Positions 18,550-26,836 of a stretch of DNA of 64,000 nucleotides are shown here, piece after piece (position 1 is the first letter of the stretch; the number at the start of each line of letters is the position of its first letter). Position numbers and translations under genes: made by a program. The notes beneath the pieces were generated by a model that ran no database searches, was not told the origin of the DNA, and saw nothing but the letters and a program-made list of their open reading frames with translations. The stretch comes from Pseudomonas sp. SCA2728.1_7 (GTDB lineage Bacteria; Pseudomonadota; Gammaproteobacteria; Pseudomonadales; Pseudomonadaceae): assembly GCF_018138145.1 (NCBI RefSeq), contig NZ_CP073104.1, forward strand, positions 4,407,001-4,471,000. The letters are read 5' to 3'.

Positions 18550-18605
18550 CGGTGCCTCGTCCTAAATAAGGTTTACACCTTCTGGCTTCTTATCAGGAGG
18601 GTGCA

Positions 18606-19001
18606 ATGGAGACGGGCGAAAAGCGGAGTCAGCGCGATTACACACTGACTTTTAAATTGTCGGTTGTCGATCAGGTCGAAAAAGGCGAGTTGAGTTATAA
18701 AGAGGCTCAACGGCGCTATGGGATTCAAGGCCGGTCGACGGTTCTGGTTTGGTTACGCAAGCATGGTCGGCAGGATTGGAGCCAAGGCGCCTCCATTCGC
18801 TCTCAGAGGACTCGACCGATGGACGAGCCAACTTTGCCGCTGACGCCTGAGCAGAGAATCAAAGAGCTTGAAGAACAATTGGCGCTGGCCAATCAGAAAG
18901 CCAAATTTTTTGAAGACGTGGTCGATGTTCTGAAGAATGACTATGGCGTATCCGTTGTAAAAAAGCGGCCAGGCAAGTCGTTGCGCAAACCCAAACCCTG
19001 A
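18606..19001 (+). CDS. IS3-family OrfA (helix-turn-helix protein)
   Basis: A 131-residue DNA-binding part of the transposase with AGGAGG before its ATG. A helix-turn-helix occupies about 10-55 (SYKEAQRRYGIQGRSTVLVW), and a leucine-zipper-like helix about 80-115 (RIKELEEQLALANQKAKFFE), as expected for IS3 OrfA multimerisation. The slippery sequence A-AAA-AAG at 18959-18965 allows a -1 shift into orfB before the orfA stop. Confidence 0.93.
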   Translation: METGEKRSQRDYTLTFKLSVVDQVEKGELSYKEAQRRYGIQGRSTVLVWLRKHGRQDWSQGASIRSQRTRPMDEPTLPLTPEQRIKELEEQLALANQKAKFFEDVVDVLKNDYGVSVVKKRPGKSLRKPKP

Positions 19002-19019
19002 GTGTCAGCAGGGCTTGCC
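18959..19019 (+). promoter_or_regulatory. Programmed -1 ribosomal frameshift signal
   Basis: The heptamer A-AAA-AAG at 18959-18965 is in the orfA reading frame. Six bases downstream a nested stem can form: GGCAAG (18972-18977) with CTTGCC (19014-19019), and CCCTG (18996-19000) with CAGGG (19009-19013); the two right-hand arms are contiguous. This is the usual IS3 arrangement of slippery site and stimulatory structure. Confidence 0.88.
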
Positions 19020-19828
19020 AGTTTATGGGAATAAGTCGCCAAGCCTATTACAAGCGAGATCGGGCTTACCGATCCAGGCTTGAGCAAGACCAGAAGCTCA
19101 TCAAGTTTGTGCATGAGATCCGCTTACGTCAGCCCTGCATCGGTACTCGTAAGTTACATTCGATGATGCATGCCAAACGCGAGAGACAAGAACTGCATGT
19201 TGGAAGGGATCGTCTATTCGATGTTTTGCGCGATCATCGACAACTGGTACGTAGAAAACGGGCCTATCACAAGACGACTGACAGCCATCATCGTTTTCGC
19301 TGCCATCCCAACCTCCTGAAACCTGGCCCGCATCAAGTGATTGCGACCGGCCCAGAACAAGTCTGGGTAGCAGATATCACCTACATCCCCACACGAGAAG
19401 GATCTGTTTACTTGAGTTTGGTGACAGATGCTTACTCGAGAAAAATTGTCGGCTTTCACGTACATGACAGCCTGCACGCCAAATCCGTGGCTCAAGCCTT
19501 CCGAAAGGCGCTAAAAGAGCGCCGAACAAAGCAACGACTGGTGCATCACTCGGATCGAGGCGCACAGTACTGCTCTGATCTTTACCAGAAGCTGCACGCC
19601 AAACATGACGTCACTTGCTCAATGACCGATGGCTACGATTGCTACCAAAACGCTCTCGCAGAGCGGGTTAACGGCATTCTGAAAACAGAGCTGCTGCTCT
19701 ACAGGCCAGAAAATCTAGAACAGGCTGAACAGATGGTGCGGGAGGCTATTACGATCTACAACCAAGAGCGGCCGCACCTTTCCTTAAAATACAAAACGCC
19801 CGATGCGGTGCATCGGGCGTTAGGGTGA
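18965..19828 (+). CDS. IS3-family OrfB (DDE transposase, made by -1 frameshift)
   Basis: Catalytic half of the transposase. It has an in-frame ATG at 19025, but the -1 frame is open from the slippery site, giving an OrfAB fusion of about 407 residues (join after residue 120). An IS21-like HTH_21 region comes first, then the RNase H-like rve core: D in VWVADITYIP, D in LVHHSDRGAQY, and E in ALAERVNGILKTE, the DDE triad. QERPHLSLKYKTPDAVH is typical of the IS3 C-terminus. It ends three bases before the right terminal repeat. Confidence 0.93.
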   Translation, partial: AARQVVAQTQTLSVSRACQFMGISRQAYYKRDRAYRSRLEQDQKLIKFVHEIRLRQPCIGTRKLHSMMHAKRERQELHVGRDRLFDVLRDHRQLVRRKRAYHKTTDSHHRFRCHPNLLKPGPHQVIATGPEQVWVADITYIPTREGSVYLSLVTDAYSRKIVGFHVHDSLHAKSVAQAFRKALKERRTKQRLVHHSDRGAQYCSDLYQKLHAKHDVTCSMTDGYDCYQNALAERVNGILKTELLLYRPENLEQAEQMVREAITIYNQERPHLSLKYKTPDAVHRALG

Positions 19829-19858
19829 ATAGGTGTAAACCTATTTCAGGACTAGACA

Positions 19859-19905
19859 CGGGACGCAGAGCGTCCCGGGATGCATTCCCACGCGGAGCAT
19901 GGGAA
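19859..19905. repeat. Double-hairpin intergenic repeat beside the IS
   Basis: Two adjacent palindromes: GGGACGC-AGA-GCGTCCC (19860-19876) and TTCCCACGC-GGA-GCATGGGAA (19885-19905, one mismatch). The pattern resembles a hairpin repeat common between Pseudomonas genes (recalled, not checked). The IS integrated at its left edge. Confidence 0.6.
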
Positions 19906-19922
19906 AGATCAGGGGCCAGTCA

Positions 19923-20666
19923 TCAGCGCAGGATCACCGGCGCAGTATCACGCGGCAGATTGTTGCGCTGCGGTGCTTCGCGCGGCTGCTCGTAACCGCC
20001 ACCACCGAGCTGCATGCTCAGTTGCCCGGCCACGTCTTCACCCAAGGCCTTGGACACGTCACGCACCACCCGTGGGCGGTTCAGCGAGATCTTGATGTCG
20101 CGGTGGTTCACCAGTTTGGTGTCCTGCGCTTCGCCCATCGCCGTGAAGGCCGAGGTGATCTCGAAGGTCTTGGTGTTGATCAGGCTGAAGTCCGCCACCA
20201 ACGTCAGGCCCAGTACCGCCGAATAGCTGTCGGTGTTCGCCAGCTCGTTGACGTCCTGAGTGAAGTCGATGTCCGACACCGTACCAAACAGCACATAGTC
20301 GGCGCCTTTGAAGTTGCCGGCCTTGATGCGCTTGATCACGTCGTAGACGTCACCCTTGGACGACGCGGTGTACGGCGTGCCCTGCACCAGCTGGAACATG
20401 CCGGTGCGCAGGATTTCACCCTTGATGTCGCCGGTGAATTTACGCAACTCGCCTTGCTCGATGTAGCTGGTGCTCGCTTCGATCTCGTTGTAGCTCGACG
20501 AGCCGCTGGAGCTGTAGTAACCCTCGCGATGATTGCTCTGGGCCGAAACGATGTGGATGTATTGCTCCACACGTTCCTGGTACGCCAGATCCGTCACCGC
20601 GACTTTCGGGGCCGCTTGCACGCTGAACGCGCAAGCCACGGCCATCATGCCAATCCATGCGCGCAT
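19923..20666 (-). CDS. CsgG/LpoB-fold periplasmic protein of unknown function
   Basis: A 247-residue exported protein starting at ATG 20666 (MRAWIGMMAVACAFSVQA, a Sec signal with an AxA-type site and no lipobox Cys). The mature part (VAVTDLAYQERVEQYIHIV, then GDIKGEILRTGMFQLVQG, GADYVLFGTVSDID) has the alpha/beta pattern seen in CsgG, FlgO and LpoB-like proteins, and ends in a Pro/Gln-rich tail. It follows the lpoB-like gene after three bases, so it is the last gene of that operon. It may be a periplasmic partner of LpoB; function is inferred from position and fold only. Confidence 0.7.
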   Translation of the reverse strand: MRAWIGMMAVACAFSVQAAPKVAVTDLAYQERVEQYIHIVSAQSNHREGYYSSSGSSSYNEIEASTSYIEQGELRKFTGDIKGEILRTGMFQLVQGTPYTASSKGDVYDVIKRIKAGNFKGADYVLFGTVSDIDFTQDVNELANTDSYSAVLGLTLVADFSLINTKTFEITSAFTAMGEAQDTKLVNHRDIKISLNRPRVVRDVSKALGEDVAGQLSMQLGGGGYEQPREAPQRNNLPRDTAPVILR

Positions 20667-20669
20667 CAA

Positions 20670-21257
20670 TTAACGCTCCGTGGTTTTGCGGATCTCTTTT
20701 TCGTCCATCCACTCGGCCAGACCGCTTTCAACGTCGATCAGTTGCAGGCTGAATTTGTAAAAGACGTCCTTGTAGTCGCTGCTGCGCTTGACGATCGAGC
20801 TGATCGATCCTTCGATGCGGTACTTGGCGGCAACCATGTTGCCGGTCTTGGCCACGGTGCTCTTCTTGTACAGACCGCTCTGGTTTTGCAGCTTGAGCTG
20901 GTCAACCTGGCTCTGCATGGCGTTGTTGTCGCTGGCGAAACGCGCTACACCGGTCTTCATCAGCTGAGTCTTGATGCTGGTGGTGATTTCGCGGGTGTCG
21001 ATGTACTCGCTGGTCTTGTTCTTCACGTCGTAGACCTGAACCACCGGACGGCCCTGCAGAATGCCGGACTGGGCCAGCGAGCGGGTCATCGACTCGGCGA
21101 TCATTTGCAGGTCGGTCGAACCGAATTCGTTGGTCACGGTTTCAACCGCTTTGGTGTCGCCGTAGCTGATGTTCTTGCTGCCCAGGGTCGGCGAAGTGTT
21201 GGCGCAACCGGAGGCCAGCAGGGCGATAACGGCGATGCAGGAAAAGCGTGCAAACAT
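20670..21257 (-). CDS. lpoB: LpoB-like outer-membrane lipoprotein
   Basis: A 195-residue lipoprotein of the penicillin-binding-protein activator LpoB family (YcfM), which in E. coli stimulates PBP1b from the outer membrane. Lipobox LLASGC at about 13-18 with Ala at +2, consistent with outer-membrane sorting. The body GSTDLQMIAESMTRSLAQSG, GRPVVQVYDVKNKTSEYIDT and KYRIEGSISSIVKR is characteristic. Unlike E. coli LpoB it has almost no proline-rich linker, so reach through peptidoglycan would be short. Next to a YcfL-like gene, as in E. coli. P. aeruginosa is known to use LpoP for PBP1b, so its role here is open. Confidence 0.85.
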   Translation of the reverse strand: MFARFSCIAVIALLASGCANTSPTLGSKNISYGDTKAVETVTNEFGSTDLQMIAESMTRSLAQSGILQGRPVVQVYDVKNKTSEYIDTREITTSIKTQLMKTGVARFASDNNAMQSQVDQLKLQNQSGLYKKSTVAKTGNMVAAKYRIEGSISSIVKRSSDYKDVFYKFSLQLIDVESGLAEWMDEKEIRKTTER

Positions 21258-21293
21258 GGGAATGCTCTCTAAAACAGGAATAGGGTGACAGGC

Positions 21294-21668
21294 TTACGGC
21301 GTCTTGATTTCCAGACGGAAGTCCACGGCTTTCGGGGTCGGGGCGATGCCTTGAATGAAGCTGGTCTGGGCGCCGTACATCATTTGGCTTTTCCACACTT
21401 CTTCTTCGGCAATCGGGAAGCCTTCCGCGCCGAGCCAGGCGAAGCGGTAGTAGAAAATCTTGTTGCTGTTGAGGGTGTTGCTCAACTGCACATTGACCGT
21501 CATGAAGCCGTTTTCGCGGGCGACGCGCATGGCGCCGACGACGATGTGTTTCTGCGGACCCATGGCCACGACTTTGCTCGCGGCGCTGCCCGGCTCTGGC
21601 GGTGGCGGGGTGGCGCAGCCGCTCGCCAGCAAGGCGAGGGCGGCGACGGCGATGAGTTTGAAGCGCAT
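21294..21668 (-). CDS. YcfL-like (DUF1425) lipoprotein
   Basis: A 124-residue lipoprotein; lipobox LLASGC at about 14-19, Ala at +2. The mature domain (VARENGFMTVNVQLSNTLNS, YYRFAWLGAEGFPI, FIQGIAPTPKAVDFRLEI) matches DUF1425/YcfL, a single beta-sandwich domain of unknown role. In E. coli ycfL sits beside lpoB; here it lies 36 bases before the lpoB-like gene and 15 bases after a COG3014 gene, supporting a common operon. Confidence 0.85.
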   Translation of the reverse strand: MRFKLIAVAALALLASGCATPPPPEPGSAASKVVAMGPQKHIVVGAMRVARENGFMTVNVQLSNTLNSNKIFYYRFAWLGAEGFPIAEEEVWKSQMMYGAQTSFIQGIAPTPKAVDFRLEIKTP

Positions 21669-21683
21669 GCAAAGACTCCGTTC

Positions 21684-23078
21684 TTAAGGTTGTTTGAGGC
21701 TGGCGACGTTGGTCGCGCTGGCGCTCGGGATGACGTGTGCGGCGAGGCCACCGGCGAACACCTGGTTGCCCACGGCGCGCAGGGTGATCACTTGATATCG
21801 CTGATCGACAGTGACCTTGACCACCGAACCGCCCACGGCGCTCGGCAGGGTAACCTGATGCTCACCCTTTTTCAGACGCAGACGCACCACTTGGGTGTAG
21901 TCCGGCAGGGTGCGCCACGTACGGGTATCGGCACCTTCGAGCACAGCTGAAGAGATACCGACGGCGAGACCGGCCAGAGGGTTGGTTTCGTTGATCTGCT
22001 TCTGCGCAACACCCTTGGTGATCGCCCGCACGGTGGTGCGCACGATGATCCCCGGCATGTCGTCGCGCAGGGCGCGGCGGGACATCGCGGTGGTGCTGTT
22101 GAGCGCGGTCAGATCGACCTGCTTACCATCGACGCCGATTTGCGCGAAAGTCGCCGTGGAGGTGTCAGGTTTGATGATCGGGAACGACAGCGGCGTGATC
22201 ACCACATTGTTGGAAATCGGCAATGGCAGCGGCACCCGGATTGAGTCGCGGGCTGGCGCCAGACCGCTTTGCACCACGATCAGAATGTCGCTGTCGTCGG
22301 ACTTGCTCGGCTTGTCGAGATTGACCAGCGCCTGCTCCAGCAACGGCGTGTTCGGACGCAGCTCGGCGGCCTTGCGGTAGCCCGGTGCAGCCAGGCCTTT
22401 TTCGCCCAAGGCTTCGTAGACGAAACCGGACAGGTAATGGCTGAACGCACTCTGGTAGCTGTTTTTCAGGCCAACCACTTCCGGCGCGTCAAGACTGGCG
22501 ACCGGATAGCCTTGCAGATCCTTGTACTGAGTCTTGATGCCTTCTTTCTCGGCTTCTTCCTCGCTCTTGAGGTATTCCTTGTCGCGCAGGTCGGCGATCA
22601 CCGCTTCACGTTCGTGAGTCTTTTTGATCGCAGTACGTGCGCCGTCGAAGTCATTGACCGCCAGCAGGTTCAGGGCCATCTGGGTGGTCAGCATGACTTT
22701 TTCGTAGTCGTAGCCTTCGTAGCGACGCACTTTGTCATTGACGATGAAGCTGCCGAACTGAGCCAGGTATTTACCGGTGTCGAGCTTGACCGAGTCTTCC
22801 CACTGACCGACCACCACATCGGCACTGGTCCAGGCATTCTGACTGCCGGAGAGATCGCCCTTGGCGCGCAGCAACTCACCTTTCTCGAAGTAATAGAGCA
22901 GGTCTTTGTCTGGGCCGGTGTTGTTCTTTTCCAGCAGGGTCAGCGCGGCGTCAACGTTGCCGTTGGCCAGTTGCTGGTTGGTCTGTGCCAGTTCGGAGTC
23001 GTAGTTGCGAAACGCCGTACAGCCGGACAGCAGAGTGACGGCGCTGAGCGCGATCAGAGTGGGGGCGCGGAATGCCAT
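21684..23078 (-). CDS. COG3014-type outer-membrane lipoprotein (copy 1)
   Basis: A 464-residue lipoprotein from ATG 23078 (MAFRAPTLIALSAVTLLSGC, Cys 20, Thr +2); the frame is open 29 codons further upstream but without a lipobox-compatible start. The first 250 residues are helical and TPR-like (NQQLANGNVDAALTLLEKNN, GRYL-type repeats); the rest is beta-rich and ends in a short extended domain. It is collinear with the gene at 23286, sharing RYEGYDYEKVMLTTQMALN and QSAFSHYL. It heads the ycfL-lpoB-CsgG-like run. Function unknown. Confidence 0.8.
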   Translation of the reverse strand: MAFRAPTLIALSAVTLLSGCTAFRNYDSELAQTNQQLANGNVDAALTLLEKNNTGPDKDLLYYFEKGELLRAKGDLSGSQNAWTSADVVVGQWEDSVKLDTGKYLAQFGSFIVNDKVRRYEGYDYEKVMLTTQMALNLLAVNDFDGARTAIKKTHEREAVIADLRDKEYLKSEEEAEKEGIKTQYKDLQGYPVASLDAPEVVGLKNSYQSAFSHYLSGFVYEALGEKGLAAPGYRKAAELRPNTPLLEQALVNLDKPSKSDDSDILIVVQSGLAPARDSIRVPLPLPISNNVVITPLSFPIIKPDTSTATFAQIGVDGKQVDLTALNSTTAMSRRALRDDMPGIIVRTTVRAITKGVAQKQINETNPLAGLAVGISSAVLEGADTRTWRTLPDYTQVVRLRLKKGEHQVTLPSAVGGSVVKVTVDQRYQVITLRAVGNQVFAGGLAAHVIPSASATNVASLKQP

Positions 23079-23285
23079 GGGGGTACTTCTTCCCTGGAGT
23101 AATACAGCCGCGGGTGCTGGTCGGGCTGGTGTGACCCATCGACAGTGGCGTTGGCCTCCTGCCAATTCCTCATAACCTGAGGAGCTTTAATGCCCGATCG
23201 CAATAACGCGGGCGCGGCATTATAAGCAGGCGGTGATGGCTATGTAATAGCTTTTTAATTGCACTGGTTAGTTAGGTGCCATTAC

Positions 23286-24689
23286 TTATTTCGAAGGGCT
23301 TGCTTTCTCTGGTAAAGGCGTCGCAGGAGCAACGAAGGCCGATCCGACGTAATAGGTCTGATCCCGGAACACGCGCAGATTGAGTATTTGATGATCCTGA
23401 TCGACGCGTAAGGTCAGGGGATAGCCCGGCGGGTAGATGGGCACGTCGACCGTGTGCAGGCCCTTTTTCAGGCGCAGACGAGTGACGAGCGTCTTGTCAG
23501 GCAGGGCGCGCCAGGTGCGTGTATCGGCCTCCTCGAAAGGATCCTTGTTTGTCACCACCAGCGAGGCCTTGACCGGGTTGCGCTCGTTTTCCTGTGCCTG
23601 GCCGATCGCGGCCATATTGGCGCGGAACATCGCGCGCGAGATGATTTCAGGCATGTCATCGCGCAGTGTTCGCATGGCCATATCGGTCACGCTGTTGATG
23701 ACCGTCAACGGCTGCTTACGGCCATCAACCTTCAGGTGATTGAAGGTCGGGGTGACGGCGTCCGGAATCATCACCGGAAAGGATATCGGCGCGACAATGA
23801 CCAGGTTTTCGTTCAGGCGCACCGGAATCGGCACTTGAACCGAGCTGCGCGCCGGTGCCAGACCGCTTTGCACAATGATCAGAACGTCACTTTCATCGGC
23901 CTTGGCTGCACGCTTGTCGAGGTTACGCAAAGCGTTCTGCAGAAACGGCATGTCCGGGCGCAGTTCGATGGCTTGGCGATAACCGGGCGCCGCGAGGTCG
24001 CGCTCACCCAAGGCTTCATAAGTGAACCCGGCCAGATAGTGGCTGAACGCACTTTGATAGCCGTTCTTCAGTTCCAGCACTTGTGGCGCATCGAGTATGG
24101 CCACCGGATAACCTTGCAGATCTTTGTAGCGCAGGGTGATGCCTTGGGACTTGGCCTCTGCCTCCGCCGCTTCGTATTGCAATTCGCGTTGCCGGGCGAT
24201 CAGTCCTTCGCGTTCATGGGTCTTCTTGATATCGGCGCGAGCACCATCGAAATCGTTGACGGATAACTGATTGAGGGCCATTTGCGTGGTCAGCATGACC
24301 TTCTCGTAGTCATAGCCTTCGTAGCGCAGCAGCTTGTCGTTGACGAGCATGGTGCCCATTTCATTGCCGAACCGGGACAGCAGCTTCATGGCGCCGGATG
24401 GGTTGGCCTCTTCGCGCTGGAAGATCATCCGGTCAGCACTGCGCCACGCTTGCTGACTTTCGGGCAGAGCGCTGCCAGCACTGAGGATGGCGCCTGTTTC
24501 CAGGTAATACAGCAGATCCTTGTCTTCCCACGGGTTATGCATCTCGACCAGTGCCAGTGCGCCGGTGAGGTTGCCCTTGGTCATCTCGTCGGTGGTTTGC
24601 TGCATTTCCTGATCGTAATTACGGTAAGCCGCGCAGCCGTTTAAAAAAAGCGCAGTGGCGAGCAGGACGAACAACGGGATGATCCGCAT
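23286..24689 (-). CDS. COG3014-type outer-membrane lipoprotein (copy 2)
   Basis: A 467-residue paralogue of the downstream neighbour. Starting at ATG 24689 gives a lipoprotein signal (MRIIPLFVLLATALFLNGC, Cys 19, Ala +2). Domains are as in copy 1: a helical TPR-like half, then a beta-rich half with DVLIIVQSGLAPARSSVQVP. Identity to copy 1 is clear over the full length but well below that of a recent duplication. A 207-base gap separates the copies, so each may have its own promoter. The gene is divergent from the FTR1 gene. Confidence 0.8.
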   Translation of the reverse strand: MRIIPLFVLLATALFLNGCAAYRNYDQEMQQTTDEMTKGNLTGALALVEMHNPWEDKDLLYYLETGAILSAGSALPESQQAWRSADRMIFQREEANPSGAMKLLSRFGNEMGTMLVNDKLLRYEGYDYEKVMLTTQMALNQLSVNDFDGARADIKKTHEREGLIARQRELQYEAAEAEAKSQGITLRYKDLQGYPVAILDAPQVLELKNGYQSAFSHYLAGFTYEALGERDLAAPGYRQAIELRPDMPFLQNALRNLDKRAAKADESDVLIIVQSGLAPARSSVQVPIPVRLNENLVIVAPISFPVMIPDAVTPTFNHLKVDGRKQPLTVINSVTDMAMRTLRDDMPEIISRAMFRANMAAIGQAQENERNPVKASLVVTNKDPFEEADTRTWRALPDKTLVTRLRLKKGLHTVDVPIYPPGYPLTLRVDQDHQILNLRVFRDQTYYVGSAFVAPATPLPEKASPSK

Positions 24690-24883
24690 AAACGGTGTGT
24701 TTCCTTGAGCCGGAATGTTGAAGGCGCGCGCAGTATAGTGACGGATGCTGGCCAGTGGCTGCGAGTTGGGGGCCGATGTGCGCAGATCAAAGACTCTGTT
24801 CCTGAGGCAACCTCGGCGATTTTGCGGAGTTCGTCTGCCGGGTACATCCGCCCAATCAAAGCGAAACACCGACAAAGCTTGAG

Positions 24884-24925
24884 GGAAATGCGTTCGAAGT
24901 GAACAATATGTAACTTCGCATTTCC
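24884..24925. promoter_or_regulatory. Inverted repeat upstream of the FTR1 gene
   Basis: Perfect 9-base arms GGAAATGCG (24884-24892) and CGCATTTCC (24917-24925), 16 bases before the FTR1 start and in the divergent promoter region. Possible operator or 5'-leader hairpin; it does not match a Fur box. Confidence 0.45.
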
Positions 24926-24940
24926 ATTTGAGAATTCTTC

Positions 24941-26836
24941 ATGACTGCCTCGTCCCGTTTCCTGGCCTGGCTGGTGTTCCCGTTGTTTGCCCTGAGCAGC
25001 TTCAATCTGCTGGCCGATACCGTGGAAGGCGCGCCGCAAGCGCTGCACCTGCTCGATTACATCAGTGCGGATTACCCGCCGACGGTAGCGGCGGGCAAGG
25101 TTGTCGATGATTCCGAATACCGCGAGCAACTGGAGTTCACTCGGGCGCTGCAAGGCTTGATCGCCGGTATGCCGGCCAAATCGGAAAAGGCTGCGCTGGA
25201 GCAGGGCGTTGAAGCCCTGCACGCGGCGATCAGCGCGAAACAGGATGGCGCCGAAGTCGCTCGGCAGGCGCGGCAACTGGGCGCGCAACTGGCGGTAGCC
25301 TATGAAGTCAGTCAGGCACCGATCATCACCCCCGATCCCACCCGAGGCGCTCCGCTCTATGCGCAGAATTGCTCGGTGTGCCACGGCGACAGCGGCGCCG
25401 GTGACGGCCCGGCGGGACTCGGCATGACCCCGGCCCCGGCCAATCTGAGGGATGCGGCGCGGCTGGATCACCTGAGCCTGTACGCGATCTACAACACCCT
25501 CGGCCAAGGCGTCGAAGGCACCGACATGCCGGCGTTTGCCGATCAGCTTGACGATCGTCAGCGCTGGGATCTGGCGACTTACATCGCCGGCTTCAGCGCT
25601 GATCCGGCGGCGGCCAGGTCCGAGAAGAGCTACAACATCGCCGATCTGGCACGCCAGACCCCGGCCGAAGTGCAGGCTGCCGATGGCCCGCAAGCGGCGG
25701 CGACGTTCCGCGCACAACGCGCGCAGCCGCCACAGGTCAAGCGTGGTCCGGCGCAGTTGCTCGACTACACCGCGGCAACGCTGGACAAGAGTCTTGCTGC
25801 GTACCGCGCCGGTGAGCACGATCAGGCTTACGACCTGTCGGTCGCGGCGTATCTGGAAGGCTTCGAACTGGTCGAGAGCTCGCTGGATAACGTCGACGCC
25901 AACGTGCGCAAGGACACTGAAAAGTCGCTGATGGCGTATCGACAGTCGTTGCAGGACGGCTTGCCTGTCGAGCAGGCCGAGCAGCGTCTGGACGCGGCCA
26001 AGGCGAAGTTGAAAGAGTCCGCCGGGCTGCTCGGCAGTGATGGCTTGAGCTGGTCGCTGAGCTACATCTCCGGCTTGCTGATTCTGTTGCGCGAAGGGCT
26101 GGAAGCGATTCTGGTGCTGGCGGCGATACTCGCCTTCCTGCGCAACACCGGCCAGCAATCGGCGGTGCGCAGCGTCAACGTCGGTTGGGGCCTGGCGCTG
26201 CTGGCCGGCCTCGGCACCTGGGCGCTGGCGGCGTATGTGATCGACGTCAGTGGTTCGCAGCGTGAACTGCTCGAAGGCGCGACGGCGCTGTTCGCCAGTG
26301 TCATGGTCTTGTGGCTCGGCGTGTGGATGCATGACCGTCGCCACGCCGCGGCCTGGCAGGATTACATCAAGAGCAGTCTGGTCGGCGGTGGCGGGCGTTT
26401 CGGCTTCGCGATTCTGGCGTTCTTCTCGGTGTATCGCGAGTTGTTCGAAGTGATCCTGTTCTACGAAACCCTGTGGTTGCAGGCCGGCCCGGCCGGGCAT
26501 GACGCGGTGCTCGCCGGTGGCGCGACGGCACTGGTGCTGCTGGTCGGTCTGGCGTGGGTGATCCTGCGCGGTTCGGCGAAACTGCCGCTGACGCTGTTCT
26601 TCAGCATCAACGCGGCGCTGTTGTGCGCGTTGTCGGTGGTGTTTGCCGGACATGGCGTGAAGGCGTTGCAGGAAGCCGGGATCTTCGGCACGCGGCCGGT
26701 GGCGTTCTTTGAATTCGACTGGCTGGGAATTCATGCCGATGCGTATTCGTTGACGGCGCAGGCGGTGGCGATTCTGGCGATTGTTGTGTTGTATGGGCGT
26801 AGTTGGGTGGCGGAGAAGCGGCGGGTAGTCGCTTAA
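24941..26836 (+). CDS. Cytochrome c / FTR1 fusion iron permease
   Basis: A 631-residue inner-membrane protein joining a periplasmic cytochrome c part to an FTR1-type iron permease. Signal peptide 1-25; c-type haem site CSVCH at 144-148 in an otherwise typical class I domain (NLRDAARLDHLS, DMPAF with the likely axial Met); a helical linker; then about seven membrane segments from residue 370, carrying the iron-binding motifs REGLE (384-388) and RELFE (499-503). The fusion suggests that Fe(II) oxidation or electron transfer is built into uptake, as with the ferroxidase partner of yeast Ftr1. This architecture is known in Pseudomonas. Confidence 0.92.
   Translation: MTASSRFLAWLVFPLFALSSFNLLADTVEGAPQALHLLDYISADYPPTVAAGKVVDDSEYREQLEFTRALQGLIAGMPAKSEKAALEQGVEALHAAISAKQDGAEVARQARQLGAQLAVAYEVSQAPIITPDPTRGAPLYAQNCSVCHGDSGAGDGPAGLGMTPAPANLRDAARLDHLSLYAIYNTLGQGVEGTDMPAFADQLDDRQRWDLATYIAGFSADPAAARSEKSYNIADLARQTPAEVQAADGPQAAATFRAQRAQPPQVKRGPAQLLDYTAATLDKSLAAYRAGEHDQAYDLSVAAYLEGFELVESSLDNVDANVRKDTEKSLMAYRQSLQDGLPVEQAEQRLDAAKAKLKESAGLLGSDGLSWSLSYISGLLILLREGLEAILVLAAILAFLRNTGQQSAVRSVNVGWGLALLAGLGTWALAAYVIDVSGSQRELLEGATALFASVMVLWLGVWMHDRRHAAAWQDYIKSSLVGGGGRFGFAILAFFSVYRELFEVILFYETLWLQAGPAGHDAVLAGGATALVLLVGLAWVILRGSAKLPLTLFFSINAALLCALSVVFAGHGVKALQEAGIFGTRPVAFFEFDWLGIHADAYSLTAQAVAILAIVVLYGRSWVAEKRRVVA

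Follow-up and report, generated by a model that had tools for sequence, protein, structure and literature searches.

An LpoB-domain lipoprotein and its COG3014 partners in Pseudomonas: a co-inherited envelope module that may encode an outer-membrane complex

What does a lipoprotein with an LpoB domain do in Pseudomonas, and what have the lipoproteins encoded beside it to do with this role? The question is raised by five adjacent genes, here called A to E, in the genome of Pseudomonas sp. SCA2728.1_7. They lie within a stretch of 64,000 nucleotides (contig NZ_CP073104.1, positions 4,407,001 to 4,471,000 of the forward strand), which was analysed as a whole and is referred to below as the window. 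Genes A and B encode COG3014-type lipoproteins, C a DUF1425/YcfL lipoprotein, D the LpoB-domain lipoprotein and E a periplasmic protein resembling CsgG, FlgT and TolB-N. The available passages of two papers describe LpoP as the activator that P. aeruginosa uses for PBP1B (PMC7267771, PMC6220978), a penicillin-binding protein (PBP). A preliminary description of the locus had proposed a co-inherited envelope module, possibly providing a second route from the outer membrane to PBP1B. Conservation of the set is indeed far beyond chance, whereas the second route found no support. We regard the chances as evenly poised that the products form a periplasmic complex anchored in the outer membrane, with the COG3014 tetratricopeptide repeat (TPR) proteins A/B and the LpoB-domain protein D as its core and with C and E as frequent extra subunits.

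The five open reading frames (ORFs) were confirmed where the preliminary description had placed them, all on the minus strand between window positions 24689 and 19923, and the translations bear out its four lipoboxes and single Sec signal. Gene A (23286..24689, 467 amino acids, lipobox LNGC-A) is the second COG3014 paralogue that had been announced; its product is 53% identical to that of B (21684..23078, 464 amino acids, lipobox LSGC-T), a TPR lipoprotein. Then come C (21294..21668, 124 amino acids, lipobox ASGC-A), D (20670..21257, 195 amino acids, lipobox ASGC-A, followed by a short tether) and E (19923..20666). The ATG at 20666 is preferred as the start of E over an alternative TTG at 20669, and the gap between D and E is 0 or 3 bases; the other gaps are 207 (A-B), 15 (B-C) and 36 bases (C-D). 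Read by eye, none of the lipoboxes in A to D has Asp at position +2, so they are of the outer-membrane type, and the signal of E is a plain Sec-type one with no lipobox.

Within the genus the genes are inherited together. In a survey of 99 Pseudomonas genomes, B, C, D and E all occur in the identical 55; D was detected in one more (G230), as a relic. With G230 included, 44 genomes are without the module, and 25 of the 55 bearing it have a second COG3014 copy. The order B-C-D-E is constant in all 20 loci fetched, with an FTR1 gene (PF03239) upstream in 20/20 and a LysE gene (PF01810) downstream in 17/20; one of the three loci without the latter is a contig end. G230 has kept both flanks, its FTR1 and LysE genes being about 90% identical to those of the window, and all that was found between them corresponds to residues 121-186 of D, in a fragment that has a stop, and residues 178-197 of E. 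As this scar lies between the same flanks, the genes disappeared together and in place. Such a loss argues for a module that is old at the FTR1-LysE site.

Beyond the genus, we examined one draw of 185 genomes of the class, in which PF13036 was counted at 55 bits or more. The COG3014 label of A and B is a putative one, given in the preliminary description. Our counts for COG3014 refer to profile A1, built from proteins encoded next to LpoB genes; the LpoB-linked family that it describes includes A and B, which helped to build it. Fifteen of 52 genomes were dropped for having PF13036 matches only under 55 bits, and three of 37 (G126, G140, G141) for matches to the COG3014 profile under 20 bits. 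This left 37 genomes with LpoB and 34 with COG3014, and all 34 of the latter have both (Fisher p 5e-34). At 34 of 38 LpoB places a same-strand COG3014 gene lies no more than 3.2 kb away, upstream at 15 and downstream at 19. DUF1425 was found in 11 of the 185 genomes, all of them among the 37 with LpoB, one match (G038) being under its cut-off; E was found in its own genome alone among the 185. Thus, the families do not occur independently: the Pseudomonas sets coincide, and across the class LpoB and COG3014 are coupled.

A species genome collection gave at least 583 confirmed matches, of which the best 80 form a set of named loci, from genera including Shewanella, Alcanivorax, Acinetobacter, Pseudoalteromonas and Ferrimonas. 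A COG3014 gene was seen near lpoB in 69 of the 80 by gene calling and in 78 by a search of all ORFs. In these 78 it lies upstream of lpoB, and of the families sought YcfL alone is ever found between the two; both loci without it (L179, L201) are contig ends. The order is COG3014-LpoB in 39 loci and COG3014-YcfL-LpoB in 27; a CsgG-like gene stands before or after in 10, and four have other orders. With looser clustering, a CsgG/FlgT-like gene is near the pair in 21/80, and in Alcanivorax, Oleiphilus and Acinetobacter it directly follows lpoB, which is the position of E. The Pfam CsgG model is over its cut-off in all CsgG-like proteins scanned, four of four from the named loci and three of three from the class draw. 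We take the COG3014-LpoB pair to be the core of the module because of the class draw (34/34 genomes, 34/38 places) and the named loci (78/80). The preliminary description had presented the joining of COG3014 to LpoB as a departure from E. coli. In fact the pair is the rule in the class draw and the named loci, and it is E. coli, with the order hinT-ycfL-lpoB-thiK-nagZ and, as had been stated, no COG3014 in the neighbourhood, that is the exception.

The individual products were compared with known families and structures. A has no match in Pfam or NCBIfam, and B gives only a sub-threshold one to TPR_2 (20.2 bits, cut-off 27). An AlphaFold2 model of B, representing COG3014, has a mean predicted local distance difference test score (pLDDT) of 86.7 and a predicted template modelling score (pTM) of 0.87; it consists of a TPR half and a half of beta strands and long helices. 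A fold search with this model matched TPR and other helical-repeat proteins. None of the matches listed concerned the beta/long-helix half, an absence that proves nothing. By sequence, COG3014 matched mostly TPR or designed helical proteins among solved structures (best E value 4.8e-5). C is a member of DUF1425/YcfL (PF07233, 68.6 bits, cut-off 28.3), with weak matches by sequence to the structures 3o0l (E value 5e-4) and 4gio (E value 1e-3).

D is over the cut-offs of both LpoB models, PF13036 (141.4 bits, cut-off 22.3) and TIGR02722 (141.2 bits, cut-off 110.55). Its tether, from the Cys to the Pfam domain, is 30 residues long and not Pro-rich, and against solved structures its sequence gives a chance-level match alone (E value 0.85). 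For E, a 'CsgG/LpoB fold' had been suggested. Neither Pfam nor NCBIfam gives it a match at E values up to 0.001, CsgG (PF03783) is not listed at E values up to 1, and no solved structure is matched by sequence. The fold cannot be proved from sequence alone, because the best Pfam match, to LpoB PF13036 (19.1 bits, E value 0.0012), is below the cut-off. A low-confidence structural model resembles CsgG (best by Foldseek, E value 3.5e-6) and FlgT (best by VIA-align), with PelC as a further related fold; profile comparisons are a further basis for describing E as CsgG/FlgT/TolB-N-like.

Together, these observations are consistent with a complex in which the products of A to E would bind one another. 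A and B might serve as the TPR scaffold, with D, C and E docking onto it on the periplasmic side of the outer membrane. By analogy with CsgG, FlgT and PelC, which have a related fold and form rings, the assembly could also be a ring. It would serve the upkeep of the outer membrane or cell wall independently of PBP1B. Since the core pair occurs in a genome in which no such enzyme was found, the original role of the COG3014-LpoB core was probably other than PBP activation. Enteric LpoB may then be a divergent offshoot, which would have become an activator of PBP1B after losing its COG3014 partner and acquiring a longer tether. The absence of COG3014 from its neighbourhood and the very long branch of E. 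coli LpoB give it the look of an offshoot, but this branch is weakly supported and the origin is an inference. Our wider proposal, advanced with somewhat more doubt than conviction, is that the pair, in many cases joined by YcfL and a CsgG/FlgT-like subunit, is a widespread outer-membrane machine of Gammaproteobacteria, and that PBP1B activation in enterics is a late reuse after the loss of COG3014.

Several observations weigh against this reading. Among nine other members of the family, six have tethers of 21-23 residues and three of 33-35, and one of the latter (L174) lies beside COG3014. The branch that leads to E. coli LpoB in the tree of the family measures 2.36 substitutions per site, and the adjacent node has a support of 0.37. 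The model of E is weak (mean pLDDT 55.1), and it was folded with CsgG-like rows, a possible source of bias. Three LpoB places in the class draw are without COG3014 (G075, G116, G136), in G097 the two genes are on different contigs, and profile A1, having been derived from neighbours of LpoB, could miss relatives of COG3014 elsewhere. Within Pseudomonas, a member looks broken in a few genomes in which the rest stand: E is split in two in G252 (G252:C20:36157-36893) and B in three in G218 (G218:C1:719801-721190), the remaining module genes of both genomes matching over all or almost all of their length, and the match to B contains a TAA in G193, G208 and G240. The nine LpoB genomes counted below as lacking UB2H include one that is 82% complete (G059) and three (G071, G089, G121) with partial UB2H matches of 28.9-30.4 bits (cut-off 27), in ORFs of 1,171-1,228 amino acids that by their length are not PBPs. 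Finally, the available part of one study reports that the V. cholerae lpoB homologue acts genetically in the PBP1B pathway (PMC4063736), which also speaks for the first of the alternatives considered next.

If D were an LpoB proper, delivered or regulated by the neighbouring proteins, this Pseudomonas would have a second PBP1B activator and two outer-membrane routes to the enzyme. D does pass TIGR02722, as does E. coli LpoB (218 bits), but no BLASTP alignment joins the two proteins at E values up to 100, and the tether of D contrasts with the Pro-rich one of about 50 residues in E. coli LpoB. The latter protein reaches PBP1B through a disordered stretch of up to 145 Å, according to the accessible sections of PMC4632607 and PMC6220978. 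The genome of strain SCA2728.1_7 encodes a PBP1B with UB2H (87.8 bits), but the gene directly following mrcB (L176:10021-10770) encodes a protein with a lipobox, a long linker and C-terminal TPRs, which by position and architecture is a likely LpoP. Across the class draw UB2H is mildly enriched in genomes with LpoB (28/37 against 77/148, p 0.01), yet nine of the 37 have no UB2H match over 50 bits. Matches under that score were dropped; most of those listed lie in ORFs of about 1,150-1,270 amino acids, which we take to be Mfd-like. In one genome rated 100% complete (G049) no transglycosylase domain (PF00912) was found, yet LpoB, COG3014 and a CsgG-like gene are present. The distribution of the module points the same way: 44 of the 99 Pseudomonas genomes do without it, and A. 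baumannii uses LpoP, as stated in the available text of PMC7943195, while other species of Acinetobacter (L240, L248, L251) carry the module. Because of the nine genomes without UB2H and the one with no transglycosylase found, the family as a whole seems not to be PBP1B-dependent. In Pseudomonas itself a PBP1B role of D is possible but unsupported; as an account of the locus, a second activator is in our view unlikely.

The resemblance of E to CsgG leads to a different proposal, in which E would be a pore or ring subunit of a small outer-membrane secretion or export system and the COG3014 and LpoB-domain proteins its accessories. CsgG-like genes over the Pfam cut-off do stand beside the pair in other genera, and the model of E has CsgG as its best Foldseek match, with FlgT and PelC as related folds; but E itself has no lipobox, a low-confidence model and no listed match to Pfam CsgG. 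Between the conserved flanks, FTR1 and LysE, there is no gene for an obvious cargo, and in 59 of the 80 named loci, contig ends included, the clustering used detected no CsgG-like gene. We consider export improbable. A flagellar outer-membrane disc or ring of the FlgO/FlgP/FlgT type is more improbable still: the module, with a CsgG-like gene, occurs in Acinetobacter (L240, L248, L251), a genus not known to have flagella. A COG3014-LpoB core complex with C and E as additional subunits is the reading that we prefer.

Some features of the relatives were noted in passing. The CsgG/FlgT-like neighbours in the named loci share a C-terminal tail, TPGSS[DE]xPxxW, in 17 of 21 cases (L182, L200, L212, L214, L215, L220, L221, L229, L232, L239-L241, L244, L245, L248, L251, L252); three others end in GPRW and one is cut by a contig end. 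As background, one of 616 other ORFs over 200 amino acids in these loci ends in W. A conserved tail ending in W is also present in L148 and is absent from L145, L168 and the E protein of Pseudomonas. In one Pseudomonas genome (G195:C4:1359802-1361210), residues 136-248 of E are repeated three more times in tandem downstream. Where COG3014 is downstream of LpoB (L149, L155, L158, L161, L163 and similar lineages), the pair often has LPP20-type lipoproteins to either side of it, some members being below the Pfam cut-off. In L145, from G049, four consecutive genes encode LpoB, a DUF6844 protein, a CsgG-like protein and COG3014.

The preliminary description had also remarked on an insertion sequence next to the set. 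It is present at about 18553-19859, encodes a transposase with an rve domain and adjoins a short palindromic GC-rich repeat discerned by eye at about 19860-19908. Its position is incidental, and the element is a recent bystander: the genome has five copies, for which 100% identity over 1,299 bases was reported, and in the relatives compared (L033-L035) the site is free of it, the alignment passing directly from window position 19860 to 18552. A mobile module, which the element might suggest, was rejected: relatives share the flanks of the set, and the element itself was inserted recently and is multicopy. Among plasmid records D had a single match, in a 4.9-Mb Aeromonas caviae record labelled as a plasmid, which by its size looks chromosomal and has the order COG3014-YcfL-LpoB. 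Neither E nor the LpoB alignment had a relative among viral contigs, PHROGs gave no match for B, C, D or E, and PADLOC no defence match for any of the five proteins.

Ahead of B-C-D-E, on the minus strand, is a sigma70-like promoter, ATTACA-18-TATAAT (23219..23248). One such site was found where shuffled sequences lead to an expectation of 1.6, and because this is no more than chance gives, support for the promoter comes from its conservation: in the 17 of the 20 fetched Pseudomonas loci that were covered, TATAAT is present in 17/17 and the exact ATTACA in 12/17. Between the promoter and B lies a conserved leader on the same strand (23079..23218; observations span 23079-23225), possibly structured, with predicted hairpins. 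For seven of its 23 predicted pairs, one sequence or more has both partners changed, and covariation contributes little to the energy (-0.16 of -11.1 kcal/mol). Rfam gave no match across window positions 19800-25000, the leader included. The leader might be a regulatory element.

The locus bears on how the LpoB family is understood. LpoB has its reputation as a dedicated activator of PBP1B, and Pfam names the whole family, and NCBIfam part of it, after the activation of PBP1B; the TIGR02722 cut-off is passed by D and by three of the five other non-E. coli members scanned. Nearly every sampled LpoB-domain gene adjoins a COG3014 TPR lipoprotein, and in some of the genomes no PBP1B docking domain was detected. 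The module was the subject of no title that we found in the open-licence literature of PubMed Central (PMC), and COG3014 was named in none of those found. If our reading is correct, most of the family bears a misleading name, an outer-membrane complex awaits description, and genetically tractable Pseudomonas, Shewanella and Acinetobacter make it possible to test where LpoB came from.

Four known systems are close to the module. With E. coli LpoB, D shares the Pfam and NCBIfam models, an outer-membrane lipobox and an adjoining DUF1425/YcfL gene. It differs in that D has no BLASTP match to that protein, lacks the long Pro-rich tether and lies beside COG3014, and in that members of the family occur in genomes without a detected UB2H and, in one case, lacking any detected class A PBP. 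Pseudomonas LpoP (PMC7267771) is, like B, an outer-membrane lipoprotein with TPRs; it is the product of a separate, distant gene, its tether is long and disordered and its TPR domain small, whereas A and B have about 465 amino acids, include a beta/helix half and are encoded together with D. E, with its low-confidence model, resembles proteins of the CsgG, FlgT, PelC and TolB-N fold, which the CsgG-like neighbours in other genera match more clearly; compared with these, E is shorter, unlipidated and over no Pfam cut-off. In Neisseria, the GNA1162-CsgG-DUF4810 cluster places CsgG-like, TPR-type and LpoB-fold lipoproteins side by side. One CsgG-like and one LpoB-type protein gave sub-threshold matches to GNA1162, but the families of the two clusters differ, and the parallel is one of composition only.

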